Shown one piece after another: positions 4,421 to 33,845 of a DNA stretch of 64,000 nucleotides (its first letter is position 1; every line of letters begins with the position of its first letter). The position numbers were made by a program, and so were the translations under genes. Below the pieces are notes generated by a model, which was not told the DNA's origin, did not search any database, and was given only the letters and a program-made list of their open reading frames with translations. Source of the DNA: Chlorobium sp. (GTDB lineage: Bacteria > Bacteroidota > Chlorobiia > Chlorobiales > Chlorobiaceae); NCBI GenBank assembly GCA_005862225.1, contig SZXV01000009.1, positions 62,001-126,000 of the forward strand, read 5' to 3'.

Positions 4421-4496
4421 ATACCATATTTGCGGTATTTTTATGGCATAAGCTTGGAATCATCACCATCATTGTGTTTTATTAACGATTGTTAAT
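4421..4496 (+). promoter_or_regulatory. Sulfur-regulon promoter block, copy A (sbp operon)
   Basis: Two elements lie upstream of the sulfate transporter operon. ATACCATATTTGCGGTAT (4421-4438) is an imperfect palindrome of form ATACC-N8-GGTAT. ATTAACGATTGTTAAT (4481-4496) is a 6-4-6 inverted repeat whose geometry resembles CRP/FNR-family sites. The same pair with 59-60 bp between starts occurs at 32013-32087 and 33770-33845. The connecting DNA also shares TTTTATGGnATA and GCTTGGA with copy C. The block begins 5 bp after the preceding gene ends. The regulator is not identified. Confidence 0.75.
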
Positions 4497-4550
4497 CAAA
4501 TAGTGACACAATGAGAGATAAAAAGTATACCCCAATCTTTTCCAAAAGCA

Positions 4551-4668
4551 TCTGCTGTTGCAGCAGAAAAACATGTCTTGACAGAACAATTTTCTGTTTG
4601 TGTCCGTAGAACCTTACAGCTCTTTTGCTGCGACCGGTTCCTGACATACAGTGAACCGGTTTTTTTTT
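4551..4668 (+). terminator. Leader hairpin plus intrinsic terminator ahead of sbp
   Basis: In the untranslated leader between promoter block A and sbp there is a perfect 7-bp hairpin with a 3-base loop (4551-4567, TCTGCTG/CAGCAGA). Further down is a classical intrinsic terminator: ACCGGTTC (4633-4640) pairs with GAACCGGT (4653-4660) and is followed by nine T (4660-4668). Termination here would stop transcription 40 bases before the sbp start, so it may be an attenuator. It could also end a small leader RNA or the read-through from the upstream gene. Confidence 0.7.
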
Positions 4669-4708
4669 GCCTTGATCAACTTACAACATTATTTAAAAAG
4701 GAGATATC

Positions 4709-5725
4709 ATGAATTTTGAATGGACTAAAAAAATTACACTTGCAGCAGCGCTTGTTCTGGCATCCGGCCTGCCGGGAAGTATTGCGGAGGCTGCTGGCGC
4801 TTCGACACTGCTCAATGTCTCTTATGACCCCACCAGGGAACTATATCAGAGTGAAAATGCTGCTTTTATTCAGTACTGGCAGAAAAAAACAGGACAAACA
4901 GTAAAAATCGACCAGTCTCACGGTGGTTCAGGAAAGCAGGCGCGGGCGGTCATTGATGGCCTTGAGGCCGATGTGGTAACACTGGCATTAGCATACGACA
5001 TTGACGCCATCGCCGACAGCAAGCTGTTGGCCCCCAACTGGCAGAGCAGGCTTCCCAACAACAGCACTCCATACACATCCACCATCGTCTTCGTTGTCAG
5101 AAAAGGAAACCCCAAACAGATCAGAAGCTGGGACGATTTAGCCAAAACCGGTGTTTCAGTCATTACTCCAAATCCTAAAACTTCAGGAGGGGCCCGATGG
5201 AACTACCTCGCCGCCTGGGGATACAAACAAAAGCAGACGGGATCGGCACAAAAGGCAAAAGAATTTGTCAAATTGATTTATAGAAATGTTCCTGTCCTTG
5301 ATACCGGCGCCCGTGGTTCTACATTGACTTTTGCACAGCGTGGCCTTGGTGATGTGCTCCTTGCATGGGAAAATGAGGCTCACCTTATTCTCAAAGAGTT
5401 CGGATCGGACAAATATGAAATTGTCTCTCCTGCAGTCAGTATACTTGCTGAGCCCCCGGTCGCTGTTGTCGATAAAAACGTGGCGAAACATGGCTCCCGT
5501 AAACTTGCCGAAGCTTATCTGAACTTCCTCTATACTCCACAAGCCCAGGATATCATTGCCCAGAATTCGTACCGCCCGAGAAATGCTGCTGCGCTGAAAA
5601 AATATGCGGCCAACTTCCCGAACATCAAACTTTTTACCCTGAACGAGGTATTCGGAAACTGGCGCACAGCCCAGAAGACCCACTTTAATGATGGTGGAGT
5701 GTTTGATCAGATCTACGTTCCTTGA
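4709..5725 (+). CDS. sbp: Sulfate ABC transporter, periplasmic sulfate-binding protein
   Basis: Substrate-binding component of the SulT sulfate/thiosulfate importer. It has 338 residues, with a Sec signal peptide (WTKK, hydrophobic core, cleavage near residue 28 in SIAEAAGA). Family motifs are [37 protein letters not shown] and [19 protein letters not shown], which form the sulfate pocket in Sbp/CysP. A strong Shine-Dalgarno sequence (AAGGAG) sits 6 bases before the ATG. It is first in the operon with cysT, cysW and cysA, behind promoter block A. A 10-bp hairpin after the stop probably lets the binding protein be made in excess of the membrane parts. Confidence 0.95.
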
Positions 5726-5748
5726 TCAAGAGAGATATTCACCACTGA

Positions 5749-5783
5749 AAGAGCAGAGACGAGCGATACTCTCTGCTCTTTTT
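5749..5783 (+). terminator. Intra-operon hairpin between sbp and cysT
   Basis: A perfect 10-bp inverted repeat, AAGAGCAGAG (5749-5758) and CTCTGCTCTT (5771-5780), runs into TTT. It lies 24 bases after the sbp stop and 20 bases before cysT. It probably acts as a leaky terminator or 3' stabiliser giving more binding protein than permease, as is common in ABC importer operons. Confidence 0.75.
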
Positions 5784-5802
5784 ATTAAGAGAAACAAAGA
5801 CA

Positions 5803-6636
5803 ATGGCACTATTTCAAACGAAAAGACGCAATATTCTTCCTGGTTTTGGATTGTCGATGGGATACACCGTCTTCTATCTCTCGGCAATCGTGATTGTGCC
5901 GCTGAGCATGATTTTTTTTAATACTGTTCCCATGGGCTGGGAACCATTTGTTCATGCTGTGACGGCACCCCGCGTCCTTGCATCGTACAGGCTGAGCTTT
6001 TCAACCGCTTTCTTTGCAGCGGTTTTTGATGCGGCTGCCGGACTGTTGACCGCATGGGTACTGGTCCGTTACCGATTTCCAGGCAAACAGTTTCTTGATG
6101 CGCTTGTTGATCTCCCGTTTGCACTGCCCACCGCTGTTGCGGGCATCTGTTTTGCAACACTCTATTCTCCAATGGGATGGCTTGGCGAGACGTTGATCAA
6201 ATGGAATATTGAGATCATCAACTCGGCGACAGGCATCGTCGTGGCACTTGTGTTTATAGGCTTCCCTTTTGTTGTGCGCACCATTCAACCGGTTCTGGAA
6301 GAGGTTGAGCAGGAGATCGAAGAGGCCGCGCACTGTTTAGGTGCAACTCGATGGCAGACCTTCAGAAAAATCCTCCTGCCCCATCTTTTTCCGGCCCTGC
6401 TCACAGGTTCAACCCTCGCATTTGCGCGTGGAATCGGAGAGTATGGCTCAGTCATCTTCATTGCAGGGAACCTGCCCATGAAAACCGAAATCGCTCCGCT
6501 GATGATCATGTCGAAACTTGACCAGTTTGATTATGCCGGAGCATCAGCCGTTGCCCTGGTTCTTTTACTTATCTCTTTTTCCATGCTTCTGGTGCTGAAC
6601 GCCGTGCAGGAGTGGCAACAGAAAGAATACCGTTAA
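5803..6636 (+). CDS. cysT: Sulfate ABC transporter permease CysT
   Basis: Inner-membrane permease of the sulfate importer, 277 residues with about six membrane segments. The binding-protein-dependent permease (EAA) loop is clear: EEAAHCLGATRWQTFRKILL, followed by ARGIGEYGSVIFIAGN, a CysT/CysW signature. PTAVAGICFATLYSPMGWLG also matches CysT. It is followed after 6 bases by cysW, with which it should form the transmembrane heterodimer. No other role is likely given its neighbours. Confidence 0.95.
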   Translation: MALFQTKRRNILPGFGLSMGYTVFYLSAIVIVPLSMIFFNTVPMGWEPFVHAVTAPRVLASYRLSFSTAFFAAVFDAAAGLLTAWVLVRYRFPGKQFLDALVDLPFALPTAVAGICFATLYSPMGWLGETLIKWNIEIINSATGIVVALVFIGFPFVVRTIQPVLEEVEQEIEEAAHCLGATRWQTFRKILLPHLFPALLTGSTLAFARGIGEYGSVIFIAGNLPMKTEIAPLMIMSKLDQFDYAGASAVALVLLLISFSMLLVLNAVQEWQQKEYR

Positions 6637-6642
6637 CCTGAT

Positions 6643-7509
6643 ATGCTGAAACCAACAACAACTGAAAGCGACCCCATTGTAAAAAAAAGAGTTTCGGATC
6701 CCTTGCCGATACAGATTTTGCTTATTGCTGCAATGCTGCTTTTTTTTACCGCATTTATCTTTCTGCCACTGGGCCTGGTCTTTGCGCAGGCATTTCAGAA
6801 AGGATGGGCCCTGTATCTGGAATCCATTACTGAACCTTATGCGCTTGAAGCTGTCAAACTGACACTGATCACAGTTGCCATCGTTGTGCCTCTGAACGCT
6901 TTTTTTGGTGTGACGGCAGCATGGGCCATCACAAAATTTAATTTCAGCGGAAAAGCGGCGTTAAAAACCCTTCTTGATCTTCCATTTGCGGTCTCTCCAG
7001 TTATCGCCGGCCTGATTTTTGTGTTGCTCGTCGGAAGCCGAACCCCTTTTGGAAGCTGGCTTGGTGAACATGGCATCAAAATTATTTTTTCAACACCGGG
7101 AATCGTTATTGCGACACTCTTTGTCACCTTTCCGTTTGTCGTACGAGAACTGATTCCCCTGATGGAAGCACAGGGAAGAGACGAAGAAGAAGCTGCACTG
7201 ACGCTGGGCGCAAAAGGATGGCAGATATTTGGAAAAATCACTCTGCCCAATATCAGTTGGGGGCTTCTGTATGGCATGATCCTCTGCGGTGCCCGCTCTA
7301 TCGGTGAATTCGGCGCAGTCTCGGTGGTCTCCGGCCATATTCGTGGCCAGACGAATACCATTCCGCTGCATGTCGAAATTCTCTACAGCGAATACAACTT
7401 CACTGCATCCTTCGCCGTGGCATCAATCCTTGTCTTTTTGGCCTTGCTCACCGTAGGAATCAAAGTGACAATGGAAAAACAATTTAAGAAAAACAGCATT
7501 CACCATTAA
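6643..7509 (+). CDS. cysW: Sulfate ABC transporter permease CysW
   Basis: Second inner-membrane permease of the sulfate importer, 288 residues with about six membrane helices. The EAA loop reads [20 protein letters not shown] and is followed by [17 protein letters not shown], typical of CysW. The N-terminal cytoplasmic tail is about 20 residues longer than in many homologues. It starts 6 bases after cysT and ends 8 bases before cysA, so the four genes look like one transcription unit. Confidence 0.95.
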
Positions 7510-7517
7510 GATTTGAC

Positions 7518-8591
7518 ATGGGTATAGAACTTCAGAACATTACCAAGAAATTTACTGGCTACACCGCGCTTGACAATATCAGCCTCAGCGTGGCTTCGGG
7601 AGAGCTTCTGGCATTGCTTGGGCCATCAGGGTGCGGGAAAACTACTCTATTGCGCATTATTGCCGGCCTGGAACTGCCTGATCATGGCAAAATCATTCTT
7701 GAAAACAAGGACACAACAAACCTGCCTCCCCGAAAGAAAAATGTTGGCTTTGTCTTTCAGCATTACGCACTGTTCAGACGACTGACGGTATTTGAAAACA
7801 TCGCGTTCGGGCTTAAGGTACTTCCGCGAAAAGAGCGTCCCTCGCGAGCTGAAATCCGTGACCGTGTTGAACATCTGCTCAAACTGGTGCAGATGGATTG
7901 GGCGGAAAAACGTTACCCTTCACAGCTTTCCGGTGGACAGCGGCAACGTGTCGCCCTTGCCCGGGCTCTTGCCGTCAATCCGAAGGTCTTGCTCCTTGAT
8001 GAGCCATTTTCTGCACTTGATGCGAAGGTTCGCCAGGAGCTGCGACGCTGGCTCAGAAAGCTGCATGATGAAATTCATGTGACCAGTATTTTTGTCACTC
8101 ATGATCAGGAAGAAGCCCTTGAGCTGGCAGACCGGATTGTTGTGATCAACAAAGGGAAAATTGAACAACAGGGCACTCCCCAGGAGGTCTACGACCATCC
8201 GGTAAACGCCTTCGTCTACAACTTTCTCGGGAATGTCAACGTCTTCCACGGTCGAGTCAACAATGGCAAGGTCTCGCTTGGGCCTCACCATGTCGATGCG
8301 CCGGATGAGCTGAAACACGCTGAAGAAAAACCGAGTCAGGCATTTGTAAGGCCCCATGAAATAGGAATCAGCAGAATCCGGAGCAGTGAAACCGATCTTA
8401 CTGGGACTATCAGGGAGGTGCGGCTCATGGGTGGACAGATTGGGCTGAACCTTTACTGTGAGGGATTTGAACACACGGTTGATGCTGAAATACCGAGAGA
8501 GCTTTATATCAATCTGGAGCTTGCCAAAGGTGATACGGTGTTTGTCTCACTGAATCGGGTGAAGGTGTTTACGGGGGATTATGTGATTTGA
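7518..8591 (+). CDS. cysA: Sulfate ABC transporter ATP-binding protein CysA
   Basis: ATPase of the sulfate importer, 357 residues. The Walker A motif GPSGCGKTT is at 35-43, the Q-loop FVFQHYALF at 78-86, the signature [14 protein letters not shown] at 137-150 and the Walker B motif VLLLDEP at 157-163. The switch histidine is in FVTHDQEEA. The C-terminal 120 residues are the usual CysA extension of TOBE/regulatory type. It is the last gene of the operon. A convergent giant gene begins its 3' end 58 bases downstream. Confidence 0.95.
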
Positions 8592-8600
8592 GGCATTAAC

Positions 8601-8622: not shown

Positions 8623-8649
8623 CAGGCAAAAAACATGTCTGTAAGTGTT

Positions 8650-11600
8650 CTAAAAAATTACCCATGCAAGAACTCCCAACGCACCAACCCCTGCCAGCAT
8701 GGCACCAGTACTGATACCGCCGCCATCACTATTTCCAGCATAAGGATCAGCCCCTGTTACCAAATCGTAATCATTTGCGCCAGCAAAGTTATCACCCAAA
8801 AGCCCTTTGATTGAACCGTCTTCAAAGGTGACATAGTAGTGCGTACTATGGGCCAGATTGCCTGTTGGGTTGATGACAAGTGTCTTGTCAGAAATAGACA
8901 GATTGGCACTGGTTTCAGCATGGTAACTTTCTACGACTGATCCGTTCACAGAATCACGATGAATTTCAATCAGGCCGTTTCCTCTTTGAATTGAATCAGA
9001 GAAGGTGAAGAGCAGGTCACTGTCCACCGCGACATTTGCAGCGCCATCAACAGGAGTTACTCCAGTGATGGTTGGCGCATGAGCAAGCGTTCCAACCTCC
9101 GGGGTTGCTGCTGATATCTCTGCATCAACCGTGCCACTGTTGATCGTAATCAGCGAACTGTTATTGCTGGCAACTGCCTGTAATGTCTGATGAGCAAGGG
9201 TATCCTGTGCAACAATCTGGGCAGCCGTCATACTGGTCATGCTGTCATGAAGATTAATTACACCACCGGAGTGAGCTGCTATTGAGACATCTGTCGAAAC
9301 CGCAGCAATTTCACTATTCAACAACGCAGTGGCTTCAGCAATTTCTGGCATATTACTGATGATATTTGCTAATGCAGCGGGATCAGTGACAGAACCATTC
9401 ACTGCCGAGAGAATAGCATTGGCAATAACAGTATTATCAGCAAGATTAACCGTTCCTGCACCGGCCGCAGCAAGCAATGAACTGGCAATAGCGTCTGCCA
9501 TAAAGGCTATGTTCGCATTGGCAACACCAGCGCCATGGACAACACTCACTGCGATACTGATAATATTGGCAATCTGGAGTGACATACTCTGAGCTTTGAC
9601 CGCCAATGCCTGGGCTGTGCTACTTGTACCTCCGGCAGAAAGAACAGCCAGAGGATCATAGGTGGTCAAATCCAATCCGGGCTCCAGACCAAGTGCCGAG
9701 TTAACCTGAGCCAAATTGCCTCCGGCAGCAACGAGAAGAGTCGTCAACGGATTCACAACCGTAGATCCTGCTGGAGCAGAAAAACTCCCTGTAAATTCTA
9801 TGCCTGTGGAAATATCGGTTGTTCCTCCGGCAGGATTAGCTGTAATACGAAGTGTTCCAGTAACCTGAAGAGCGCTGAAGTGACCAGCATTATCGGTAAG
9901 AGTCCACGCTTCACCCTCTCCGTCGTCCCAGGCGCTATCCCCATTACCGTCAGTCCAGTCTCGCAATCCATTGTTGTTGCCATCAACCCAGAGCAAGGCG
10001 TTGGCCAGATAACCGTCCTGTGCTACACCAGACTCCAGAATGGCGACAGCTTTGGTCGGCAAACTCTCCACACTTTCAGGTGTTCCAGCGTCATCAGTAT
10101 AACTGGCCACTACAGTAATAGTTTTGCCAATCTCTTCTTTACTCAACGCATAACTATTCTCTGTCGCCCCGTTAATATTTACATCGTCAGCCTGCCATTG
10201 ATAGCTGATCACGCCCAATCCATCGGCATCCGCAAGAGTATGTGAGGCCGTAAGCGTTTCGCCCAATAATGGCGTACCTGTGATGGTGACAGAACCTGTG
10301 GGCGAATTGTTGATCGGAATACTCACCGCAAGGCTGATATCGACCAGTGGATTGCCAGCAATGTCACGCAGGGTGGCACCGTTCAGCAGCATGGCACTTC
10401 CAAGCGCTGTGCCGTCACTATTGCTCTCTCCGTCGGCAATGATGTGGCGGAAAATCAGGGTGTCGGTGCCGCTGCCGGATTGATAGGCGGCTTCAATGGC
10501 ACAGCCCCCAATCGTCATGTTGATTACTGGTGGAAGAGCGGCGATATCAACGAATAACGATTCTGAGAAGCGAATGGTGAAGTCAAAGGAGTGACCTTCC
10601 GCATAGATGCCGTCAGTTGACAAGACCACTGCCTCAATTTGGGGCAGAAGAGTGTCGGTCAGCGTAGCGCCTGGGGATACCTGAATGGTCAAATCTTCCT
10701 GATCTGGTACAGCTTCCTTGTTGCCTGCGTTATCAGTAGCAACAGTGTAGAACGCGTATGTGTGGCCCGGTTGACCGGCATACGTGGCTTCGGTCAGTGT
10801 GGTGTTCTCCAGCCATGGGGTGTATGTTCCGCCGTTGTCGGAGAGATACACGGTATAACCGGCAATGGCTGAACCGACATCGCTGCCCGACCAGCGGACG
10901 AGAAATTGGGCTGACTCAACGGTAGCACTGGCCATGGCTTCGACTTTGCTTTCGGGTGCTTGGGTATCGAGTGTATTGGAGATGGCCGGGGTGTCGATAG
11001 GCTCCTGTGTGGTGAAGACGATGGTCGCTTTTGCGTCAATCACCGTGCCGGTTGGTGCATCAGCATTGGCACGAACCGTATAATTGACGAAACCCTCGCC
11101 CGTACCTTTTGTCACGTTAGTTGGCAGGAAGCCAATCGTTGGATCAACCGGAATTTCACCCGTCGTGGGGTCGATGGTGGTAAACATCCAATACGCCTCG
11201 TGTTTTGCAACATCTATACCAGCCATCACATCGACCATATAGCCTTTGGAGGAAGTCAGATTGATGCGATCAATATAAAATGACGTACCGTCAGGAACAT
11301 CAATATAGATATCGCTCCAGCCGAAGTCACCGAGGCGGAAACTGCTGGCATTCAGGTCGCTATCAAGGGTTTGCGTGATCGTAACCTCTTGGGCTGGCGC
11401 TGTGGCACTCGCCTGGTTCTCATAGTGAATGGTGTAAGGCAGGACGTTCTGGCTACTGCTCCAGTGTTCGTCGCCGAAGCTTTGTGGGCCGACGATGTCG
11501 TTGGGGTCGCTGGGGCGAATGATGGGAATAGCACCACTAGCTTCTCCTAGCCCTAAGTTAGATCCATCTCCTCTTGGGCGCAGTGCTTGTTCAATTTTAT

Positions 11601-14600
11601 CGCCCCAACTTTGCCCCCAATTTTGCCCAACTTTGCCTCCTAATTTTCCGCCAACTTCTCCGCCAATGTATCCACCCATGTATCCACCAATGTATGCCCC
11701 AACGTATCCGCCCGGTGGGCCTGCAAAGATTTCTCCAAGTGCTATTCCAAGTCCTATTCCAGCTTCTCTACCTATTGCTCTTCCGGCCGCTTCTCCAACG
11801 GCTGTCCCGGTTACTGCACCTGCAGCACCACCGATCGTTCCCCCAATTCCAGCACCAGAGTTAATCGAGGTATAAGCACCATCTCTAGCGGTTATAGCTG
11901 TTTGCAAAACGGCCATTGTGGATAAATTTCCAGATGGATCAATAAACGAATTGGGGTTATTAAAAGAATAAACATATAGATTAGTATCGCCACCATTAAC
12001 CCCTAACGGATCAGTCAGGATAAACCTTCCATCCGCACCGCTATAATACCTGGCCCGCATAAAATCAAGCCCATTCCCTGCATCCATCACGCCCCACTGC
12101 CCGACATACTCGAACGAATTGGCAACAGTTTCGGCGGTTGTAAGGTTTTCGCCGAACGGCAAATACGAGTACTGGTTCAGATAACTTCCTGCCGATCCAG
12201 TCAGCCCTGCAGTAGAGCCGATGGCGTTATAGTCATAGTAGTAGGAGCCACCAACTGTAGTTGTTTGGCTTTCAAGACCAAGCCCATAGGTGTAAGCGGC
12301 AATCAGATTGCCATTGCCGTCATACTCCCCGGCTACATTGACCAAACCGGTCGGATCAAGCTGGTATTCGGTACGAGCACCATTATGCGCACTGGCTATG
12401 CGGTTACCGAGAGCATCGTATTCATAATTCCAGGTATCGGAAGGAGTGGTGACTGACAGGAGATGGTTTTCTGCATCATAAGCGTAGAGGGTCGCAACGC
12501 CATTCTCGCTCTTGCCAGTAAGGTTACCGTTAGCGTCGTAGCTGTAGATCGCATTGCCAACGCCGGTGTACTCGTTGAGATTATTGGTGGCATAATTGGT
12601 TGCAACACCACCATCATCCACAACCGTACGATTGCCAGCCGCATCGTAGTGGTAGGCAATGTGGCGTCCTGTCGAAAGCATGACACCGGTTAACTGACCA
12701 ATGGCATCGTATTCGTAGCTCGTTTTGCCATCCAAAGTGGTTTCACTGGTACGATGACCGCCGACATCATAGGTGTAGTCGAAGCGGGAGTTGATGGTAC
12801 TGTCCGCCTTATAATTTAGCAGATGGGTCAACTGCCCGGCAGCATCATACTCATAGGTGGTGTAAGTGCCGTTACCGTTATCCCCCCGGTTCAAATGGCC
12901 CGCTGCATCGTAGCTGTATGCAGCAATCAAGTTACCCGTCCCGTCGGTCACACGAGAGAGATGACCAAGAGTATCATAACTGTAGTTGGTGATGTGACCT
13001 GCCTGATCGGCCATCTGGGTACGGTGGCCAACGGCATCGTATTGGTAACTCAACCAGCGTCCATCTCCATCAGTAACCTTGGTCAGCCGGTCAGCCGTAT
13101 CGTACTGAAAACTCGTTGAGCTGTCGGCGTCTACAGCGGTGACAAGGTTGCCGTGACCGTCGTACGTAAATTTCGCTGTTGTACCGTCAGCATAGTTCTT
13201 CTGAGTAATGTAGCCATTGGTGTCATAGGTGTAAGTAACACTTTGACCGTTACGGTTGACATCGGCAGTCAGATGACCTGTGGTATCGTAACTGTAACTC
13301 TCACTGTGGCCATCAGCGTAGGTGATCCTGTTCAGGTTACCTTGACTGTCGTAGCTATATTCGATTGGGTTACCACGCTGATCGGTAACTTGCGCAAGAT
13401 GTGCGAACTGTGCATCATAGGAGTAGGAGACAGTTTGACCCAGGGCATCCTGCACGGAGATCGGATGACCCGCCGTGTCGTACTGAATGCTGGTGGAGGT
13501 GCCATCGGCATTGACGATGCCTGTCATGTTGCCGTTTGCATCGTAGCGCAACTGGCTGACATTACCCAGGGCATCCTCCACTTGGGCGATCTGGCCGCTC
13601 TCGTTCAGCCAGAGATGAGTGCTTGCTCCGGTCGCATCGGTAGCAACAACCTCATTGACTCCGATATAACTGTAGGTGACCGCCTCGGCTCCTGAGTTGA
13701 CGCTCTCCTGAACCAGTCGCCCGCTCGAAGCATAATTGAAATGGTGTACCGTACCATCAGCAAGCGTCATGGTGCTGATTCGGTGCAGTGCCGCACCGGC
13801 ACCAGTAACATAGCTGTACTCTGTCGTCCCGTCAAGTGTTGTGACGCTGGTCAGGAGCTGGTTGCTGCCGTCGTAGGCGAAAGTAACCGTCCGTCCGGCC
13901 TGATCGGTCTGCTGAATCAGACGCCCGGCATCGTTATAGGTGAAACTCAGCATGTCGCCATTGTCCGAGACCACTTGCGTCAGATGACCAGCATCATAGA
14001 TGGCTTGAACAGTATAACCGTTACTGTCCCTGATTTCCGAAAAATTTCCGTCAAGGTTAAAGGAAATAGTTATACCATTCTGCTTATGGAGCACGAATGC
14101 ACCACCGGTTTCAGTCAGGGTAGAGGTGCCCTGACCGACCAGTTTATAGCTGCCATCATACTGTAGTTTGAAGTCCACATGTTCACCTACGCTGTTTATT
14201 ATCACACTGCCGTCCGACTGGCGGATAGCGGTGATATCCCATATAAAGGGGTGACTGTAACCGAGCACACCGAGAACGGAAGCGCTCTGCAGTGTACCAC
14301 CATCGCTGGCTTTCTGATAATCCAGGCTGAAGAGTTTTGCGATATTGGCTGTGCGGCTTTCCAGTTGGTCAAGATAGGTAGCATTCGCCGCAAGGTTGTT
14401 CTGGTAGTCTGTCGTCGTTGCACCCAGCTCTGTAATCAGACTCGCCTTAATCGTTGACCAGGACTCCTGAGTGATGTTTTCGGGCTTGCTGGCCTCCAGA
14501 ATGGTATTCCAGTCAATAACCTGATCACGTTTCAAACTGGACACACCTAGATTGACCGTGCCAACGCCAGCAAAGGCAGGCTTGAAGAACAACTGGAAGC

Positions 14601-15441: not shown

Positions 15442-15486
15442 CCGGGTAGTATCGATTGATGCATTGAGGTTGTTGGCCTCGTTGGT

Positions 15487-21400: not shown

Positions 21401-24400
21401 ACACTATAGCTGCCTGAGTTAGCAACAATAAGGTCAGTCTTACCATCACCATTGACATCAGCAGTCGTAACTGATTGAGGATAGCTTCCTGTTCCATAAT
21501 CTACCTTCCCTGCAAAGGTACCATCGCCATTGTTTTGAAACATAGAAACACTGTTGCCACCTACGTTCGCAACAATCAGATCGGCCTTGCCATCGCCATT
21601 GACTTCTGCTGTCGTAACAAATGAAGGAATATAACTTGTCGAGTAATCTACCTTGGTGGCAAAAGTGCCATCACCTTTGTTCGTCAGCACTGAAACACTC
21701 CTGCTGCTCCAATTCACAACAACCAGATCAGCCTTGCCATCGCCATTGACATCCGCGCTGGTTACAGAAAGTGGATAGCTTCCTGTTCCATAATCTACCT
21801 TCCCCGCAAAGGTGCCATCACCTTTATTCGTCAACACTGATACGCTATTGCTATCTGCGTTCGCTACAATTAGATCAGAGTTGCCATCACCATTGACATC
21901 CGCACTCGTCACTGAAAGGGAATGTGTGCCCGTAGCGTAATCAACTTTTTCAGAAAATGAGAGAGCACTTGGCTGGAAAATAACAGGAACATCCTTCACC
22001 GGTATGACCGATATGGCAGCTTGGACAGGTGTGAGCGATTCCTGACCGGTGTTATCCTTTGCTACGACAGCAAAAGCAGTTAAGGTACCGTTTGCATTGG
22101 CTGCCGGTGTCCAGTATGCTTTGTGCGTGGCATCAATGGTGTTGTTCTTCGAAGCATTCCAGGCAGTGGCAGTTGCGGCATCAGCTCCGATTCTGAGAGT
22201 ACCGTTTACCGACTTGACTACAAATGCTTGAATGCTACCATCAGCATCAGCTTGATTACCCTGCACCTTTATATCCGCAAAGGTTACTTCAACCGCTGTA
22301 TCTTCATCAGTAACACCAACCACGCCGCTGAACGCTGTCAGAGTCGGGATAAAACCATCGGCAAACCGGAAGTTCTCGACTGAAGTAACAACGTCCGTTC
22401 CATCGCGTCCCGCCACATGATCTGTAATGGTATATCTCGACAACGCTACTTCGCGAGCGATAGTGTACTCGGCATAATAACCACTGAACACAACCGTATC
22501 ATTACCATCGCCACCGTCAATGGTGTCATTGCCCGATCCTCCACTGATGGTGTCGTCGCCACCATTACCGTAGATAGTATCATTCCCCGATCCGGCATTG
22601 ATCAAGTCATTGCCACCATTACTGCTGATGTAATCGTTATAGCTGAAAACACCTTCTTTATCATAAGAAAATGAAATCCACCCTGTGGGAATAGTCGTTT
22701 GTGTTGCTGTACCAATCCAGTGCAGGGTATAGGCGCCACCAGTCTGGTTCATGATCTCAGAGGCGTTGACGGTAAAGCTGGTCAAAATTTTATCGGTACC
22801 ATGCCAAAGTTCAAGCCCAAGATTGGTCAGACTTGCAAGTTCTTGGTCAGTAAATGTTACCGTACCAATCATTGAAAACTCATTTGCTCCGAGGGTATAA
22901 ATTGGTTGGGATTGGAAATACACATAAGCCGATGAACTTCCCTTGTAGGGATTTGCCACAGCAAGTGCATCGGCATCAATCTGGTCATCAAATCCTGTAC
23001 CGTCTATCCTGTTGGTTGAATAAGAAGAGGAAGTCGGAGTAAATCGTATGGCCAAATCCAGCGACTCATCATTAAAGGAGAGGCGCTCAATTCCGGTAAG
23101 GGTGTCAGTACCATCGGGCGAACCAGCACGGGTATCGGCAACTGTCCATACACCATCGTTATTGGTTATCGTGTAATCAGCCCTGTTGCCATTATAACTC
23201 GCAGTGTCATTTCCTGCTCCACCACTGATGGTGTCGTTACCTCCATTGCCAGAGATATAATCATTGTAGCTGTAACCGTCTTTATCGTAGGTGAAGTAAA
23301 TCGTCCCTGTGGGAATGGTCGTCTGTGTTGCTGTACCAATCCAGTTCAGGGTATATGCGCCACCGGTCTGGTTAATGATATCATCAGCGTTGACGGTAAA
23401 AGTGGTTGTGACTTTATCGGGACCATGCCAGAGTTCAAGCCCCAGATTGGTCAGGTTTGCGAGTTCCTGTACGGTAAACGTTACCGTACCAATCATTGAA
23501 AACTCATTTGCTCCGAGGGTATAAATCGGTTGGGATCGGAAATACACATAAGCCGATGAACTTCCCTTGTAGGGATTTGCCACAGCAAGTGCATCAGCAT
23601 CAATCTGGTCATCAAATCCTGTACCGTTTATGCTGTTGCTTGACCCCGAAGAAGAGGACGAGGTCGGGTAAAATTGGACAGCCAAAGCCATCCCTGCGTC
23701 AGAAAATGAGAGGTATTCAACTCCAATAAGGGTGTCAGTACCATCGGGCGAACCAGCGCGGGTATCGGCAACTGTCCATACACCATCGTTATTGGTTATC
23801 GTGTAATCAGCCTTGTTGCCATTATACCCCACAGTGTCATTACCAGCCCCCCCATTAATAGTGTCGTTACCAATGCTCTCATAAATATAGTCATCAGCAG
23901 TAGAGGCATTACTGGCCAAGCCGAGTGCATCAGCATTAATCGTGTCATCTTTGGCTGTACCATAAATCGAATTTTGATATAAACCACTCCAGAAAGATAC
24001 TTCGGTAAACTTGGCTGGATCGATTTCATAGAGCGTCGTGCCAGAAACAAACTGGAAAACTTCGACGCTACCAATAGAGAATGTCTTGGCACTCTCCCCT
24101 GACCCTGTGGTCATATCTGCTTCGCCATGGGAAAAGAACTTGAGTGCTCCAAGCACGGTAACAGTGCCATCAACACCGACTGTCCCTTGTAGTACATAAA
24201 CCGACCCACTTTTCACAAGCTCCAGTTTGCCGTAACCCGGGACACCAAAATCCATCACAAGGGTATCCCTGCCATCACCAGCCCACACATCCAACGAGTT
24301 TGCCGCAGTCAGATATATTTCGTCATTCCATGGCGTACCATGTATATAATTATTACCAGCAACACTCTCATCAATGAAGGTGTAAGGCGTAAGGTTGATG

Positions 24401-26899: not shown

Positions 26900-26902
26900 C
26901 AG

Positions 26903-27502: not shown

Positions 27503-29305
27503 TCATATCTGGTAATCCTGAATAATTTCTCGCGATTTCAGCAGCTCAGCGACCTGATTCACAGCCTCAGCAACAACCCTACCATCAGGCACCTGCAAAT
27601 CAGGATGATATCGTGAAAAGGCGTTCTCGCCCATATTGACCACAAGAATATCATTCGGTTCATTGAGTACCTTCAGTGTCTCAATATCGTAGTCGTCAGC
27701 ATCATCAATGGTGGTGATAAAAATCAGCCCTGCATCGGTGAGAATACGGGCAAGCTCGCCGATCCTCCTCAACCGTTCGCCACTGCTGTCGGTATGCGAA
27801 CGAAGATCTGTATCAAGACCACGATCAATGTTTGCCACTCCGAGATAATAAACATTCATGCGATTGAGGAAAAGCCTTTGCTCAAGCGCTTTTGCCACCG
27901 CCCGTTTGCCAGTGCCAGGCGCTCCGGTAAAAACGATAAATTTGGCCCGGTGATGATTCACCTCTGCGCGCTCTTCCTCACGAACAAGACCGGTCTCCCA
28001 ATGATGTTCACGGTCTTTGATATGTTTCTGCAAAAGAGTCTCTCCGGCTGAAAGGTTCTCAACCACAACGCCGCCACCGGCAATTTCATAGTTATCGACT
28101 ATAACAAAGCGACCCGTGGTTTCACTTGCCGCAGTCGTATCGAATGCAATTGGACGAGAGGTTTCAAGAATGCACTCTCCGACGTCCCGGCAGTCAATCT
28201 GTTGTTTGCTCTTGCTGTACGTGAGATCAGAGGCATCCAGCGTATTGCATATCTCGGCAAGCTTGACTGTTGCCCTTGCAGAGCCGAGCTTGAGTTTGTA
28301 CTCCTTGTTTCGGAGCATAGGCGCCCGGCCAACCCAGAAAATATTGACCCTGAATCGGCTGCCAACTTCCGGCTGAGGTTCTTCTGGTTTCACCATAAGC
28401 TCCCCGGGACGTATGTAAATCTGGGTTGCAAGGGTAAACCCCGAAGCCTCCCCTGCTGATGCCTGCTTTTTGGATGCTGTGTTAAACGATTCGACCGACT
28501 TGATGGTCGATCGTTTCCCCGAAGGGAGAAAAAGCACTTCATCTCCGGCCAGCACCGTTCCGGCGGCAACGGTTCCCGCAATGATTCTCCGGTCATCATT
28601 GCTGCGGGTAAATTTGTAGATATCCTGCACCGGAAAACGAAAGGGCTTCTCCTGAAGCTCCTTGTCGCTGATGAACCGGTCAAGCTGTTCAAGCACAGAA
28701 AACCCCCTGTACCAGGGCATTCGTTCAGAAAGGGTTGCAATATTATCACCTTCACGTGCGCTGACAGGGATAAAACTGACCGGCGTCACATTGATCTGTG
28801 CAAGAAAGGCGGTGTAATCGGCCTTCAGTTTTTCAAAAACCTCCTCACTGAAGTCGACAAGATCCATTTTATTTGCCAGCACGGTCACCTGCTTGACGCC
28901 AAGCATTGAGACCATCTGACCATGCCTCTTTGAGTTCTCCCTGATACCCTCATCAGCATCAATAACCAGCAGAGCAGATTCTGCCCTTGATGCGCCGGTA
29001 ATCATGTTCTTAAGAAACTCAATGTGGCCAGGCGCATCAATGATAATGTAGTCCCGGGCTGCCGTTTTAAAAAAGCAGCGTGCCATATCAATGGTTATCC
29101 CCTGTGCCTGCTCATCTTTGAGCGCATCAAGCAGAAAAGCGTACTCAAACGGCTTTGAATTCTTTCGGCAATTTTCTTTGACCGCTTCAAGCTTGCCTTG
29201 CGGTAAAGATCCGGTATCGGCAAGCAGTCGGCCAATCACGGTGCTTTTCCCATGATCCACATGACCGACTATAACAATATTCATTTGCGCACGTCCACTA
29301 CTCAT
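27503..29305 (-). CDS. cysN: Sulfate adenylyltransferase large subunit CysN with a degenerate APS-kinase-like domain
   Basis: GTPase subunit of ATP sulfurylase, which with CysD makes APS from sulfate and ATP. The G1 motif GHVDHGKS is at 14-21, DAPGH at 90-94 and NKMD at 145-148, followed by EF-Tu-like beta-barrel domains to about residue 430. Residues 455-600 form a second P-loop domain (GAPGTGKR near 461-468) with [16 protein letters not shown], which recalls APS kinase (CysC). The kinase's usual LDGDNVR and ISP-Y-R motifs are missing ([10 protein letters not shown] and [10 protein letters not shown] instead). It may be catalytically dead or altered. I chose the ATG at 29305 ([14 protein letters not shown]) because the extra N-terminal residues from 29347 have no family match. 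Confidence 0.9.
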
Positions 29306-29369
29306 AGCATCCCGAAAAAATATTAATTCCCACGACCACTCCTCCATTATCCACTGTCACATTGCCCAC

Positions 29370-30269
29370 TCACATGTACCCGTCACGGCGAAGAGTCTCA
29401 AGCCCGCCGCCATCTTCACTGTCCTGGGCACGCCCTGAACGCTCGGCAATATTGGAAAACTTGCCACTTTTGAGTTCCTCAATAATCTCCAAAACCGTTC
29501 GCGCATCCGAATTGACCGGATTGGTACAGGGATAACAGCCAAGGGAGCGATAACGAATGCCACTGCCCTGATTAAAATAGAGCGAGACCACCGGAATCTT
29601 TTCCCGTTCGATATATTCCCAGATGTTCTGTTCAGTCCAGTCAAGCAGGGGATGAATACGGACATGGGTTCCAGGGGCAAAATCGGTCTTGAACTGGTTC
29701 CAGAACTCCGGTGGCTGATCGCCGACATCCCAGACGTTGTCCTTGTCCCGGGGTGAAAAATATCGTTCTTTTGACCGGCTACCCTCTTCGTCAGCCCTGA
29801 CACCAACAATCACGCCGGTGTAAGGCTCTCTCCCCTCATCAACCACATAGCGCCGTTGCTCATGGTCCATCCTGTACCGATTCCATTCTCCCGAAAGTGT
29901 ATGTTTCAGCGCTTCACTTTTCAGGTATTTACAGCAGGTAAGACGATCGGTATTGCCATCAGGAAAAGTGAGTTTCTGAGCAAGAGCGTCGCTGTTTTCT
30001 CCATAGATCATGTTCAGGTTCCACTCAAGGGCAAATCGGTCACGATACTCAATCATCTCAGGAATCTTGAAGTGGGTATCAATATGAACCAACGGAATTG
30101 GAACGTGTCCAAAAAAAGCTTTCCGGGCAAGCCAGAGCATGACAGTGCTGTCCTTGCCGATTGACCAGAGCATGCAAAGACTTTTAAATTCACGGTAGGC
30201 CTCCCGGAGAATGTAAACGCTCTGCGCCTCCAGTTTGTCGAGGTGATCCATACTTGTCTGTATCGTCAT
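29370..30269 (-). CDS. cysD: Sulfate adenylyltransferase small subunit CysD
   Basis: ATP-pyrophosphatase-fold subunit of ATP sulfurylase, 299 residues with the expected length. The PP-loop motif SIGKDS is at 36-41. [19 protein letters not shown] and the C-terminal GCYPCTNPV are family signatures. The start at 30269 ([16 protein letters not shown]) fits CysD proteins; the ORF extends 150 bases upstream into cysH without homology. It lies 4 bases after cysH and 64 bases before cysN in the assimilatory sulfate reduction operon. Confidence 0.95.
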
Positions 30270-30273
30270 AAGG

Positions 30274-30987
30274 TTACTGTTGTTTTCGGTGCAGACCGCA
30301 CTCCTTGTGTTCTGGAATTTCCCACCACCAGCGTCCAGCCCTAATATCTTCTCCAGGCTTGATCGCTCTGGTACACGGAGCGCATCCGATGCTGGGATAC
30401 CCCTTATCATGGAGGGCATTAACAGGGACGTTGTGTTTTAGGATATATTCCCAAAGCGTTGTCTCCGTCATCTCGGCAAGCGGATTGATTTTATAGAGTC
30501 CAAACGACTCATCCCACTCGACAGGGTCTATTGCTGTTCTTGTAACTGATTGCTCACGTCGCAACCCGCATATCCAGCCCTTCAGCGTAGAAAGCTTCCT
30601 GGAAAGCGGCTGCACCTTGCGTATGCGGCAGCACTCCCGGCGCAGTTCAATACTCTGGTAAAAAAGGTTGGCGCCATATCGGGTCTGCATGGTTTGAACC
30701 TCGGGCGCTTCAGGAAAAAGCACTTCAATCTGAATGCCGTATCGTTGTCGTGTTGCATCAAGCAGATCATAAGTCTCCTGAGGCAGCCTTCCGGTATCAA
30801 GGGTAAAGAGTGGTATCTGCAATTTTTCTTTTTCAAGCAGATCGGTAATCACCTGATCTTCGGCTCCAAAGCTTGTGGCAAAAGCACACGCTTCCGGTTC
30901 AAAAAAAGCCGCAGCCCAACGTAATATCTCTTCCGGCGCTTTACCGGAGAGTTCGCCACTTAATACCCTCGCTCGCTCTCTACTCAT
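30274..30987 (-). CDS. cysH: Adenylylsulfate (APS) reductase, iron-sulfur type CysH
   Basis: This 237-residue protein reduces activated sulfate to sulfite with thioredoxin or glutathione-like donors. The catalytic cysteine is C230 in ECGLH. It also carries C119-C120 ([10 protein letters not shown]) and C202/C205 (GCAPCTRA), the CC/CxxC set that binds a [4Fe-4S] cluster. In characterised homologues this set marks enzymes using APS rather than PAPS. The start MSRERARVL at 30987 was preferred to the ATG at 31017. It lies between the sulfite reductase gene (51-base gap) and cysD. Its type fits the degenerate kinase domain on CysN: no PAPS is needed. Confidence 0.92.
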
Positions 30988-31038
30988 GAATCTTATGATC
31001 TTGTGTTCAATAATCAAATGTTCCTAAACGGTCATATC

Positions 31039-31929
31039 TCAACAGGTCCCAAGAATCTCCTCCCTGACCTTTTCAATCCCGATACGGTCAATTGTATGAC
31101 CGAAACGCTCTTTTTTCCGCCCATGATTTCGGTGACACGTCAAGGCTTTCTGAATAAGTTCGTACAGTTCCTCCTCACTCCCAATCATTTTCTTCAGTAC
31201 TGTCGCAAAACGGGGTATTTTCCCCATAGTACCGCCAATAAAGAGCGTGTATCCCTGCCTGCCGATAACCCACGCTTCACCGGGGCAATGCTGAGTACAA
31301 ACAGTACAATTGATGCAGTTATCCCGGTCAATAGTGTAATGGTATGCCTTTCTGCCATTGCTGCCACTCTCGTGACGGACAATGGCTTTTGCCGGACATA
31401 ACTTAAGACACAGCCCACAATCGCAGCATGATGACGAAACCCAGTCTGGTTCAATAGCGCCACGAACGCCAATATCATTTTCGTTTGCCTTGGTACAGTT
31501 ATTGGCACAACCAGTGACCGCCATCTTGAATTTTGAAGGTGCCTCCTGATTGAAAAAACGGGTATCAAGCTCTTTTGCTATCTTCTTTGTATCAATGACT
31601 CCCCATTTACAGGTTGCTTCTCCGGGGCAGGCGGTAATCACCCGTACCCGGGTTCCTGAAGCACCCATCTGTACCCCGGCGACCTCCAGGACAAGTCGGG
31701 CATTTTCAAGATTGTCATGATGCACATGATGGATCTCAACCCCCTGACGAGTTGAAAGATGCACAACACCTCTGCCATATTTTTCAGCAACCAATGCAAT
31801 ACAAGCCAATTGTGTTGCCGTCAAATCACCAGCAATCGCTTTTAATCGAATAAAATAGTATTCATGCTGTTTCTGACGTATCATTCCCTCCCTTTTCAAG
31901 GGTAACACAACATGCTCAACTTCAGCCAT
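31039..31929 (-). CDS. Siroheme/ferredoxin-type sulfite reductase, single small subunit
   Basis: A 296-residue protein with the siroheme-[4Fe-4S] motif C101-x5-C107 and C141-x3-C145 (ACPGEATCKWG, GCANNC). Two ferredoxin-type clusters are inserted after it: C169/C171/C174/C178 and C205/C208/C211/C215. The layout matches AsrC of anaerobic sulfite reductase and the small methanogen/clostridial sulfite reductases, about half the size of CysI. No AsrA or AsrB partner is in the window. As first gene of the operon with cysH, cysD and cysN it most likely reduces sulfite to sulfide for cysteine, possibly with ferredoxin. The ATG at 31938 is an alternative start. Confidence 0.85.
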   Translation of the reverse strand: MAEVEHVVLPLKREGMIRQKQHEYYFIRLKAIAGDLTATQLACIALVAEKYGRGVVHLSTRQGVEIHHVHHDNLENARLVLEVAGVQMGASGTRVRVITACPGEATCKWGVIDTKKIAKELDTRFFNQEAPSKFKMAVTGCANNCTKANENDIGVRGAIEPDWVSSSCCDCGLCLKLCPAKAIVRHESGSNGRKAYHYTIDRDNCINCTVCTQHCPGEAWVIGRQGYTLFIGGTMGKIPRFATVLKKMIGSEEELYELIQKALTCHRNHGRKKERFGHTIDRIGIEKVREEILGTC

Positions 31930-32012
31930 GCTTTTCAAATATTTAGTATTATTTGCGGTAAATGAAGTCCCAACTCAGGTGATACCGACGGCAGGATTCA
32001 GGCAATCGCGAA

Positions 32013-32087
32013 ATTAACAATGGTTAATAAAAACCATCAATGACCACATCTCCAACCATATCGCAAAAAATACCGCAAATATGGTAT
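32013..32087 (-). promoter_or_regulatory. Sulfur-regulon promoter block, copy B (sulfite reductase-cysHDN operon)
   Basis: On the minus strand, ATACCATATTTGCGGTAT (32087 to 32070) is identical in all 18 bases to copy A. ATTAACCATTGTTAAT (32028 to 32013) follows at 59 bp, differing from A at one central base. TTGGA is kept between them. The block ends 84 bases before the sulfite reductase ATG. The leader that follows has no terminator hairpin, unlike those of copies A and C. Confidence 0.75.
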
Positions 32088-32101
32088 ACGGGCGGAGCGA
32101 C

Positions 32102-32170
32102 AAAAAAAACATCCGGAAAGAACTGAAGAAAAATGCACCCGACAACATTGTTCTTAAGTCTCCCGGATGT
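32102..32170 (-). terminator. Long-loop terminator after tRNA-Cys
   Basis: On the minus strand ACATCCGG (32170 to 32163) can pair with CCGGATGT (32116 to 32109), and eight T follow (32109 to 32102). The loop is about 46 bases, so this is a weak-form intrinsic terminator. It shares CCGGATG plus T-run sequence with the hairpin on the other side of the tRNA. Confidence 0.5.
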
Positions 32171-32194
32171 CCGGAGGAATTGATGGATAAACTG

Positions 32195-32268
32195 AGGCGA
32201 TGACAAGATTCGAACTTGTGATAAAGAGTTTTGCAGACCCTTGGTTTAGACCACTCACCCACATCGCC
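32195..32268 (-). tRNA. tRNA-Cys (anticodon GCA)
   Basis: A 74-nt cloverleaf on the minus strand. The acceptor stem GGCGATG/CATCGCC is a perfect 7 bp with discriminator U. The anticodon loop CTGCAAA gives GCA (32232-32234). The T arm is ACAAG-TTCGAAT-CTTGT. CCA is not encoded. It lies between the porin gene and the sulfite reductase operon, with an intrinsic terminator on each side. A cysteine tRNA inside the sulfate assimilation locus may be coincidence or functional clustering. Confidence 0.93.
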
Positions 32269-32270
32269 AG

Positions 32271-32351
32271 AAAAAAACATCCGGGCTTCTGAAAATAAGA
32301 TGCCACACACACCCTGAAGTCCGCACATAACTTCAACCATAGGCCCGGATG
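32271..32351 (-). terminator. Long-loop terminator after the porin gene
   Basis: On the minus strand CATCCGGGC (32351 to 32343) pairs over 9 bp with GCCCGGATG (32286 to 32278), followed by seven T (32277 to 32271). It begins 12 bases after the porin stop and ends 3 bases before the tRNA-Cys. The loop is about 56 bases. Confidence 0.55.
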
Positions 32352-32362
32352 CCGGAGAAACG

Positions 32363-33514
32363 TCAGAAGGTTAATGTTGCCCAAAGTTCTGAACGCAGGC
32401 GACTGGTATTCACATCGGCGGCGACACCTGAATGATCACTTGTCGTCAAGTAACGCACGGTTGGCTGAATGCTTAACTTTCCTGCCGGTATTTTATACTG
32501 GGCCCAGATAAAGTTATTGGTGTACTCGTGAGTCGTGCTGGTAGACTTGTCGGTCGTTTTGTTATAATCATACCATGCCACAAACGGACCGTACTCACCC
32601 TTGATTCTAAAGAGATATCCTGAATAATCGACATTTGCACTGGCAGTTGCATAGTTCGCACTGCTGGGAGTTGTGCCATGGCCACTGGTGCGGAATCCAC
32701 TGAACCCAAGCTTCGCGTTACCAACAGGGACACTTACATTTGTACCAAAAGTAAACGGCCGGATACCCTGATGAAATACATCGCCAGCCGAGTAAGTGGT
32801 CTGAGTTACCGTATCGTGCTGGTTCAGGGCAGTAAGCACCTGTGGCTCAATAGTAACATCTCCGATGGTGGTTTTATAGTTCAAAACAAGAACATAACCA
32901 TCGTTCAGAGTACCATCACCGGTTCCGGATGTATCGTTCCTGGAGAGATTGTCAAATACCCCAATCACTGCATTCAAGTCACCTGAACCAATTTTAGTCC
33001 CGTAATTAACTCCAAAAAGTCTGTCATTATTAAATGTGGTCGCTGGAATATCAAGAGGATTTTTTGGATAGAGGTGAATATCAAAAACCGGATTATTGGT
33101 AGAGTTAAGCGGAAGACGACCTAACAGATAATGACTATCTCCATAATTACGGCCAAAATAGAGCTGTGAAAAACCGATCGTATATAATTCAGTGTTTCCA
33201 TAGCCTACAGTCTGCCAACCTCCACCTCCACCAATTTTTGCGGTTGTTCCAGCACCACCGCTACCGGAAAAGCTGGGAGCTTCATTGCTGATCAAAGCCC
33301 TGAAAAGATAGCCCCCCTCAAAATCTCCCGCAACATTCAGCCGAGCACGGTACTGATAATATAAATTATCCGGTGCGGTGCTTTGATGCTTCGAGTCGAA
33401 AACTTCATCTCGCACTCGAACAGAGACATCTCCTCCAAACTTCAGCTCAGCCGAAGCCGGTGATGCGTATGAAAGTACTGCAAACATGGCAGCAAGCGAT
33501 AACATCCTTTTCAT
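32363..33514 (-). CDS. Outer-membrane porin, probably sulfur-regulated
   Basis: A 383-residue protein with a signal peptide (MKRMLSLAAMFAVLSYASPASA, cleavage near residue 22), then alternating beta-strand sequence rich in aromatic and polar residues. It ends in a C-terminal phenylalanine (LWATLTF), the hallmark of outer-membrane beta-barrels. I do not recognise a named family beyond alginate- or phosphate-porin-like barrels. Promoter block C and a leader terminator lie upstream, shared in kind with the sulfate transporter, so passage of sulfate or organosulfur compounds through the outer membrane is inferred. Confidence 0.75.
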   Translation of the reverse strand: MKRMLSLAAMFAVLSYASPASAELKFGGDVSVRVRDEVFDSKHQSTAPDNLYYQYRARLNVAGDFEGGYLFRALISNEAPSFSGSGGAGTTAKIGGGGGWQTVGYGNTELYTIGFSQLYFGRNYGDSHYLLGRLPLNSTNNPVFDIHLYPKNPLDIPATTFNNDRLFGVNYGTKIGSGDLNAVIGVFDNLSRNDTSGTGDGTLNDGYVLVLNYKTTIGDVTIEPQVLTALNQHDTVTQTTYSAGDVFHQGIRPFTFGTNVSVPVGNAKLGFSGFRTSGHGTTPSSANYATASANVDYSGYLFRIKGEYGPFVAWYDYNKTTDKSTSTTHEYTNNFIWAQYKIPAGKLSIQPTVRYLTTSDHSGVAADVNTSRLRSELWATLTF

Positions 33515-33581
33515 TATATTTTTCCTTTTATTAGTTGTTATGTTGAGTGTTATTGTTGAAAAAAATTCCTGTAAATAGAAA

Positions 33582-33645
33582 AAGCCAGCTTTTTATGACG
33601 AAAAAGCTGGCTTCGAAAACTATAATCCGCCCTGAACATCAGGGC
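33582..33645 (-). terminator. Leader hairpin and intrinsic terminator ahead of the porin gene
   Basis: On the minus strand a perfect 7-bp hairpin with a 3-base loop comes first (33645 to 33629, GCCCTGA/TCAGGGC). It is followed by a 13-bp terminator stem (33613-33601 with 33594-33582, AAGCCAGCTTTTT/AAAAAGCTGGCTT) running into TTT-CTATTT. It lies 68 bases before the porin ATG and downstream of promoter block C. The arrangement of a short hairpin, then a terminator, then the gene is the same as in the sbp leader, so attenuation is plausible. Confidence 0.7.
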
Positions 33646-33769
33646 TATTATGTCGATAATCGGCTCTTCCGTTTTTCAACGTCAATCCGGAGACAACAAC
33701 CACCTTTTGGCCTGTCGTTGATAATGTTGTTATGTCTCATTACTTGATAGTTCATTTGAGTAACGTTTG

Positions 33770-33845
33770 ATTTACAGGGGTCAATAAAGCTTTATATCAT
33801 GATAAAATCCAAGCATATACCATAAAAATACCGTTAATATGGGAT
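33770..33845 (-). promoter_or_regulatory. Sulfur-regulon promoter block, copy C (porin)
   Basis: On the minus strand ATCCCATATTAACGGTAT (33845 to 33828) matches copies A and B at 15 of 18 positions. It is followed by TTTTATGGTATATGCTTGGA, very close to copy A. The second dyad ATTGACCCCTGTAAAT (33785 to 33770) is 60 bp from the first element and continues with CAAA as in copy A. It lies about 255 bases upstream of the porin start. Confidence 0.7.

Follow-up and report, generated by a model that had tools for sequence, protein, structure and literature searches.

A candidate sulfate-acquisition regulon in Chlorobiaceae with a conserved promoter block and cysteine-run leader peptides

Introduction

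The enteric CysB regulon, under a LysR-type regulator, includes the genes with which cells import and reduce sulfate and make cysteine, and across well-studied bacteria both LysR (CysB) and CRP-like (CysR) types of regulator control sulfate genes. Classical attenuators of the trp and his type consist of a leader peptide, a run of regulatory codons and a terminator, and Canestrari is said to have described, in 2020, poly-cysteine leader open reading frames (ORFs) of actinobacterial cys operons. Here we examine the control of sulfur genes in a Chlorobium sp., starting from a stretch of 64,000 nucleotides (nt) of one contig (assembly GCA_005862225.1, contig SZXV01000009.1, positions 62,001 to 126,000; the whole stretch is called the window below). 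A block of about 76 base pairs (bp), composed of an upstream element 1 and a downstream dyad (element 2), occurs there before sbp-cysTWA (copy A), a sulfite reductase-cysHDN operon (copy B) and a porin gene (copy C). From comparative sequence analysis we propose, with a probability of about two in three, that this block serves as promoter for a sulfate-acquisition regulon under two layers of control, a NarL-like regulator and attenuation by cysteine (Cys) leaders.

The passages cited here describe partial parallels in other bacteria. The uORFC-8-2 motif before cysS of Rhodobacterales combines a short ORF containing tandem Cys codons with an intrinsic terminator, and sensing of charged tRNA-Cys has been proposed for it (PMC8632094); mycobacterial and other actinobacterial cys operons have a Cys-codon run in a small upstream ORF, with no conserved terminator (PMC1262725). 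NarL sites are inverted heptamers with a 2-bp spacer, a 7-2-7 layout, lying upstream of -35 (PMC2718512, PMC7419079). A survey of RNA motifs gives six regulogs for the Chlorobiales and names His, Leu, Thr and Trp as the amino acids whose attenuators Rfam contained at that time (PMC3766115). By assimilating sulfate, some green sulfur bacteria, Fe(II) oxidisers included, can grow with it as their sole source of sulfur (PMC5498476). A literature search that had most subscription papers outside its reach returned no account of how these bacteria turn sulfate assimilation on, and none of this regulon, of the regulator or of Cys attenuation in Chlorobi.

Results

The three copies lie where the original prediction placed them and in the same orientations, as re-reading of the window sequence confirmed (Table 1). 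Element 1 is identical in A and B (18/18) and matches at 15/18 positions in C, the starts of the two elements are 60, 59 and 60 bp apart (A, B and C), and the dyad has no mismatch in A or B and reads ATTGAC-N4-GTAAAT in C. Element 1 resolves into an inverted repeat of 7-2-7 layout, TACCATA-TT-TACGGTA (heptamers TACCATA and TACCGTA, spacer TT), and the block holds further fixed sequence beyond the two elements noted earlier, namely TTGGA and T(T)TAT, whose spacing is constant. TTGGAA-N17-TTTTAT makes a plausible -35/-10 pair, a reading under which element 1 would fall near -60 and the dyad would overlie the start site. Of the two-site block originally described, the separable elements are thus retained, whereas the free-standing sites give way to what appears to be a complete promoter with an additional site upstream.

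Within the window, ATACC-N8-GGTAT with at most one mismatch has five matches against 0.83 expected, a number reached by 1/100 shuffles; the dyad with at most two mismatches is not significant alone (four against 2.65 expected, reached by 26/100 shuffles). Because A, B and C all fall inside 30 kb of this genome, they might be taken for a functionless mobile repeat or recent duplicates, but the sequence between the elements differs among them and every copy is conserved before its own orthologs, which refutes that idea and leaves it a negligible probability.

Conservation was assessed in 81 genomes of the order Chlorobiales, 69 of them in Chlorobiaceae and 12 outside. An Sbp match occurs in 46 of the 81, all in Chlorobiaceae, and a sulfite-reductase subunit match of at least 48% identity in 45 (three of these partial). 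Of 92 distinct upstream regions, 86 (45 sbp, 41 sulfite reductase) contain element 1 at 13/18 positions or better, the window's own two regions being counted among the 86, and 81 contain it at 14/18 or better, against 0/490 shuffled regions; the five that score only 13/18 stand at a level reached by 13/490 shuffled regions. The 92 leave out two repeats of window sequences, two regions shorter than 150 nt (L011, L021) and four duplicates, and the six regions without element 1 are L078, which lies at a contig edge, L084, L087, L088, L095 and L096. Conservation upstream of orthologous operons, on which the original prediction had staked itself, is therefore present. TACC, TTGGA and further positions are invariant in 36 aligned copies from relatives. 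In a second Chlorobiaceae genus, most sbp and sulfite-reductase regions keep element 1 without a recognisable dyad, indicating that elements 1 and 2 are separable.

A position model (R1), trained on 36 relatives' copies with the window copies excluded, was applied to the Chlorobium genome itself, where 150 of 1051 first-look candidates were scored. It recovered A, B and C at 72.1, 57.9 and 52.8 bits, followed by a weak fourth match of 15.3 bits (E-value 0.04) situated 36 nt before cysK and by further matches at E 0.9 and 1.35. The block is thus near-absent elsewhere in the genome, the opposite of the many random matches that would have counted against common control. Across the 81 genomes, with 54 candidates scored per genome, R1 matched at E 0.01 in 49, which within Chlorobiaceae divide into 44 of the 46 genomes that have Sbp and 5 of the 23 that lack it.

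We inspected 64 places among the matches listed. Twenty-one lead into proteins resembling the window porin, and others precede a sulfonate-permease-like gene, alkylsulfatases, major facilitator superfamily (MFS) transporters, radical S-adenosylmethionine (SAM) proteins, outer-membrane efflux proteins and a corrinoid protein. Matches before other sulfur genes had been expected, and the alkylsulfatases and the sulfonate-permease-like gene are examples in relatives; the targets as a whole give the picture of a sulfur-scavenging regulon. Weak matches before HU- and lipA-like genes (named by eye) were set aside, since element 1 is absent from them and what they share is the promoter core, of the form TTGGAA..GAAAATATTG..TTTTAT (L200, L205, L209 and others). 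In the window itself, an MFS transporter gene (34058-35275, plus strand) diverges from copy C and encodes a protein about 80% identical to seven element-1-linked MFS proteins of relatives; element 1 was not found on its own strand before this gene.

Sequence conservation before orthologs and specificity within the genome lend good support to the idea that sulfur-assimilation genes are under common control through two separable elements, the part of the original prediction that stands. Element 2, however, is not confined to this regulon, and the Cys leaders and the candidate regulator had been overlooked.

The exact core TTAAC-N4-GTTAA occurs at six places in the 2.5-Mb genome (reversed control, 0), two of which, on contig C10, have no evident sulfur link. 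The form TTAACRATYGTTAA has 160 matches (control, 7) across the 69 Chlorobiaceae genomes, being present in 64, and was found in none of the 12 non-Chlorobiaceae genomes examined. Twenty stretches were chosen for closer study, many near the regulator or an HTH_1 gene and 17 from genomes without Sbp; 19 have the dyad, and 16 of those a metZ, metB or DUF4395 match. Since the dyad stands at metZ and metB promoters, also in genomes without sulfate assimilation, it is not specific to this regulon, and it is predicted to be a separate, general Cys/Met element of the whole family. Within this genome (G000) one dyad stands immediately ahead of a SAM riboswitch and metB-like gene (L002, 1501-1660, plus strand, contig C4). 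An HTH_1 gene, in this genome that of ModE, lies near the dyad in part of the family, and its product is at most a possible reader of the dyad.

Comparing the neighbourhoods of sulfur clusters in divergent relatives led to a candidate reader of element 1 that is encoded outside the window, a 214-residue LuxR/NarL-type response regulator with matches to PF00072 (receiver, 34.9 bits) and PF00196 (GerE, 54.2 bits), both above cut-off. In its own genome the gene order is DUF4395, metZ-like, regulator, cysK, cysE; after cysE comes an SrpI-like encapsulin shell protein with a cNMP-binding domain (L181, 38-1495, minus strand, G000 contig C2). An ortholog of the regulator is present in all 46 Chlorobiaceae with Sbp and in 7 of the 23 without, and its gene lies directly upstream of the sbp block in two relatives (G065, G058) and near cysK and sbp in two others (G029, G044). 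Conservation of the TACC core of both heptamers reaches 97-100% across the 86 blocks, themselves preselected by likeness, and a third heptamer appears in sbp promoters (76-91% per base) and is not clear in sulfite-reductase promoters. Distribution and neighbourhood make this regulator the best candidate for the protein that reads element 1.

Other regulator families were considered as readers. PF03466 (LysR_substrate) has no match in this genome at E 0.001, and the presence of LysR proteins is unrelated to Sbp (7/46 genomes with, 4/23 without); PF13545 (HTH_Crp_2) likewise has no match at E 0.001, the search for CRP types having covered this family and not PF00325. Control by a CysB-like LysR protein or by a CRP-like protein of the cyanobacterial CysR type, to which the resemblance of the dyad to a CRP/FNR site might point, is on these results very improbable. 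The sole PF00126 (HTH_1) match in this genome is ModE, which is not supported as reader of element 1 because an HTH_1 protein of about 270-340 codons (Pfam-checked as ModE in the own genome only) occurs in most Chlorobiaceae regardless of the regulon. Rrf2 proteins number two in this genome, and each of the 81 genomes has one or more, whether it has the regulon or not; their neighbours, judged by eye, show no sulfur link.

The regulon and its Cys leaders could also be real and element 1 be read by a different factor, the response regulator following the regulon through its location among sulfur genes. The families profiled were LysR, CRP, Rrf2 and HTH_1, Rrf2 would fit any distribution because it occurs in all 81 genomes, and six genomes have the regulator and no block. 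We nevertheless regard this as unlikely, given the distribution of the regulator, its neighbourhood in several genomes and a 7-2-7 layout of the kind used by this protein family.

The second proposed layer of control lies in the leaders. Those of sbp are about 200-235 nt long and contain a small ORF at a near-fixed distance, a Cys run and then an intrinsic terminator. Among 44 distinct sbp upstreams, 37 are long and all of these have the terminator; 34 of them show a run of two Cys or more and three have scattered Cys. The other seven are short (43-66 nt) and have neither leader ORF nor terminator. Porin leaders could be parsed in 16 of 23 cases tried, and 15 of the 16 have a terminator and a run of 2-5 Cys; the remaining seven missed the start pattern, yet each shows a small ORF with at least three adjacent Cys. 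A CCCTG..CAGGG hairpin in the porin leader, considered as its terminator, was superseded by a stronger hairpin with a T tract. The metZ-regulator operon has a third leader, MKMSEKNFSMCCCCCRWQHDTDTGISGRRS, and a run of at least three Cys followed by a terminator is found in 21 of 21 metZ leaders (those of this genome and of 20 Sbp-containing relatives picked from 53 genomes with the regulator), 20 of them with the exact dyad. In the 20 stretches chosen for the study of the dyad, such a run near the dyad occurs only in G051, which lacks Sbp and has the regulator and blocks.

Because the ORF picker favours Cys runs, a like search was run on shuffled leaders as control. Of 52 leaders, 49 contain CC and 35 CCC, the shares among shuffles being 2.9% and 0.1%. 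In named genome records (the short L349 and L386, and L360, left out), CC is present in 37 of 49 Chlorobiaceae sbp upstreams against 2 of 28 from other bacteria, and CCC in 24 against none. Apart from Cys the leader peptides vary widely, and they use both Cys codons (TGC 104, TGT 127).

The sbp terminator has 11 pairs, three with changes on both sides (16 sequences chosen from 37). Equilibrium folding with the complete hairpin showed the terminator winning on average in every ribosome state, with no switch, so we folded unfinished transcripts instead, which end before the 3' arm of the terminator, for 46 of the 52 leaders (32 sbp, 14 porin). In sbp leaders, the mean probability that upstream RNA binds the 5' arm was 0.73 with the ribosome stalled at the Cys run and 0.22 with the ribosome at the stop codon, and in porin leaders 0.71 and 0.32; 43 of the 46 leaders exceed half of their own shuffles. 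More upstream RNA is free on stalling, which explains part of this effect.

Absence of an average switch at equilibrium agrees with control at the promoter only, the leader ORFs encoding translated small proteins (thiol or metal binders, for example) and the terminators setting a constant readthrough. We consider this quite improbable, since the sbp, porin and metZ peptides have little in common but the Cys run, the order of ORF, stop, terminator and gene is fixed with similar spacing, and stalling favours sequestration in unfinished transcripts. The anatomy of the leaders is that of ribosome-mediated attenuation by cysteinyl-tRNA and supports such a mechanism, which the modelled folding supports modestly.

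Several other features of the window touch these genes. A tRNA-Cys (gca) gene (32194-32268, minus strand) lies between the porin gene and copy B, within the putatively cysteine-controlled cluster, and this tRNA was the sole match in an Rfam scan of the window, which found no riboswitch or known RNA family in the leaders. Between cysA and cysN, the minus strand carries two giant ORFs of 2263 and 3214 codons and then an Rpn-type nuclease gene (8650-25131), while in relatives such as G065 the sbp and sulfite-reductase operons face each other at about 10 kb or less. Farther along, a gene for an Lrp/AsnC-type regulator (47518-48042, minus strand) adjoins that for a type III glutamine synthetase.

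Table 1 Features of the window, with predicted promoter and leader elements
Feature	Position	Strand	Remarks
sbp, cysT, cysW, cysA	4709..8591	+	
Sulfite reductase subunit, cysH, cysD, cysN/C operon	27503..31938	-	Short leader, without Cys peptide
Porin-like outer-membrane protein	32363..33514	-	Without Pfam or NCBIfam family
Copy A element 1	4421..4438	+	Inverted heptamers 4422-4428 and 4431-4437 around TT; hand-counted
Copy A third heptamer-like stretch	4442-4448	+	
Copy A predicted promoter	4454..4482	+	TTGGAA 4454-4459, 17 nt, TTTTAT 4477-4482; predicted from invariance and fixed spacing in relatives
Copy A element 2 (dyad ATTAAC-N4-GTTAAT)	4481..4496	+	On predicted start site
sbp leader peptide MRDKKYTPIFSKSICCCSRKTCLDRTIFCLCP	4511..4609	+	Closest relative keeps all six Cys (L346)
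sbp-leader intrinsic terminator with T tract	4632..4668	+	-16.6 kcal/mol
Copy B element 1	32070..32087	-	
Copy B predicted promoter	32027..32055	-	TTGGAG 32055-32050, 17 nt, TTTTAT 32032-32027; hand-counted, putative
Copy B element 2 (dyad)	32013..32028	-	
Copy C element 1 (15/18)	33828..33845	-	
Copy C predicted promoter	33784..33812	-	TTGGAT 33812-33807, 17 nt, CTTTAT 33789-33784; hand-counted, putative
Copy C element 2	33770..33785	-	Two mismatches
Porin leader peptide MNYQVMRHNNIINDRPKGGCCLRIDVEKRKSRLST	33648..33755	-	CC only here; CCC-CCCCC in most relatives
Porin-leader intrinsic terminator with T-rich tract	33576..33612	-	-16.2 kcal/mol

Discussion

In the mechanism we propose, initiation would be governed by the response regulator from the DUF4395-metZ-regulator-cysK-cysE cluster, which would bind element 1 as a dimer on the 7-2-7 repeat near -60 and, at sbp promoters, often on a third heptamer near -44, activating a promoter whose boxes read TTGGAA and TTTTAT. 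A second, separate factor would act at the start-site dyad and would also serve metZ and metB promoters of the family. During elongation, the transcripts of sbp-cysTWA, the porin gene and the regulator's own operon would first encode a peptide of about 30 residues with a Cys run. When cysteinyl-tRNA is ample, the ribosome would reach the stop codon and the terminator would form ahead of the structural genes; under a shortage of it, the ribosome would stall at the Cys run, upstream RNA would sequester the 5' arm of the terminator, and transcription would continue.

A number of our observations weigh against this two-layer model. Kinship of the genomes inflates every count and statistic, and the 86 blocks were themselves selected by resemblance to element 1. 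Several weak block matches in relatives precede genes without a sulfur link. The six regulator-positive genomes without a block at E 0.01 include two with Sbp (G038, G079), and marginal blocks occur in G069 and G080, both without the regulator. There is no Cys peptide at the sulfite-reductase operon or at the short-leader sbp paralogs, and no CCC leader was found near the metZ dyads of G043, G015 and G029, all of which have Sbp. ORFs containing CC are common by chance in the window, where four CCC ORFs occur, so that the window's porin leader says little by itself. In the folding models, shuffled upstream RNA binds the 5' arm too (0.56 for sbp, 0.54 for porin), and the equilibrium result described above also stands on this side.

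Should the two-layer model be right, it would supply a candidate regulator and its site for switching on sulfate assimilation, and would extend poly-cysteine transcription attenuators to another phylum and to new targets. The attenuator would read cysteinyl-tRNA, an internal gauge of sulfur sufficiency, and the promoter box may read another signal; each control layer gives a direct prediction. Our more far-reaching proposition is tentative and stands at close to even odds: that sulfate-assimilating Chlorobiaceae have a cysteine circuit without a described equivalent, in which a NarL-type regulator on 7-2-7 sites replaces CysB, a separate, family-wide Cys/Met operator lies on the start site, and poly-cysteine attenuators act on transporter, outer-membrane porin and regulator operon. 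If such a circuit exists, charging of tRNA-Cys would gate the targets and their activator alike.

Gene coverage of the predicted regulon is like that of the CysB regulon, the difference being that a LysR-type regulator was not detected in this genome. The candidate resembles NarL, as far as the cited descriptions of its sites extend, in the 7-2-7 layout upstream of the predicted -35 and in being a receiver plus GerE protein; unlike NarL, which exerts nitrate control in E. coli, it is linked to sulfate and cysteine genes and would use a TACCRTA-like heptamer. With uORFC-8-2, as the cited passage presents it, the leaders share a Cys-codon ORF followed by an intrinsic terminator, whereas that motif has two Cys codons and a single target, a tRNA synthetase, in Alphaproteobacteria, and the Chlorobiaceae leaders have longer runs and stand before transporter, porin and cysteine-synthesis genes. 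Actinobacterial leaders likewise place a Cys run in a small ORF before sulfur genes; the part of the source cited describes translation attenuation in M. smegmatis, and the Chlorobiaceae leaders differ in having an intrinsic terminator. Closest in leader anatomy are attenuators of the trp and his type, from which the Chlorobiaceae leaders differ in amino acid and phylum, and to which they would add a dedicated regulon promoter box.

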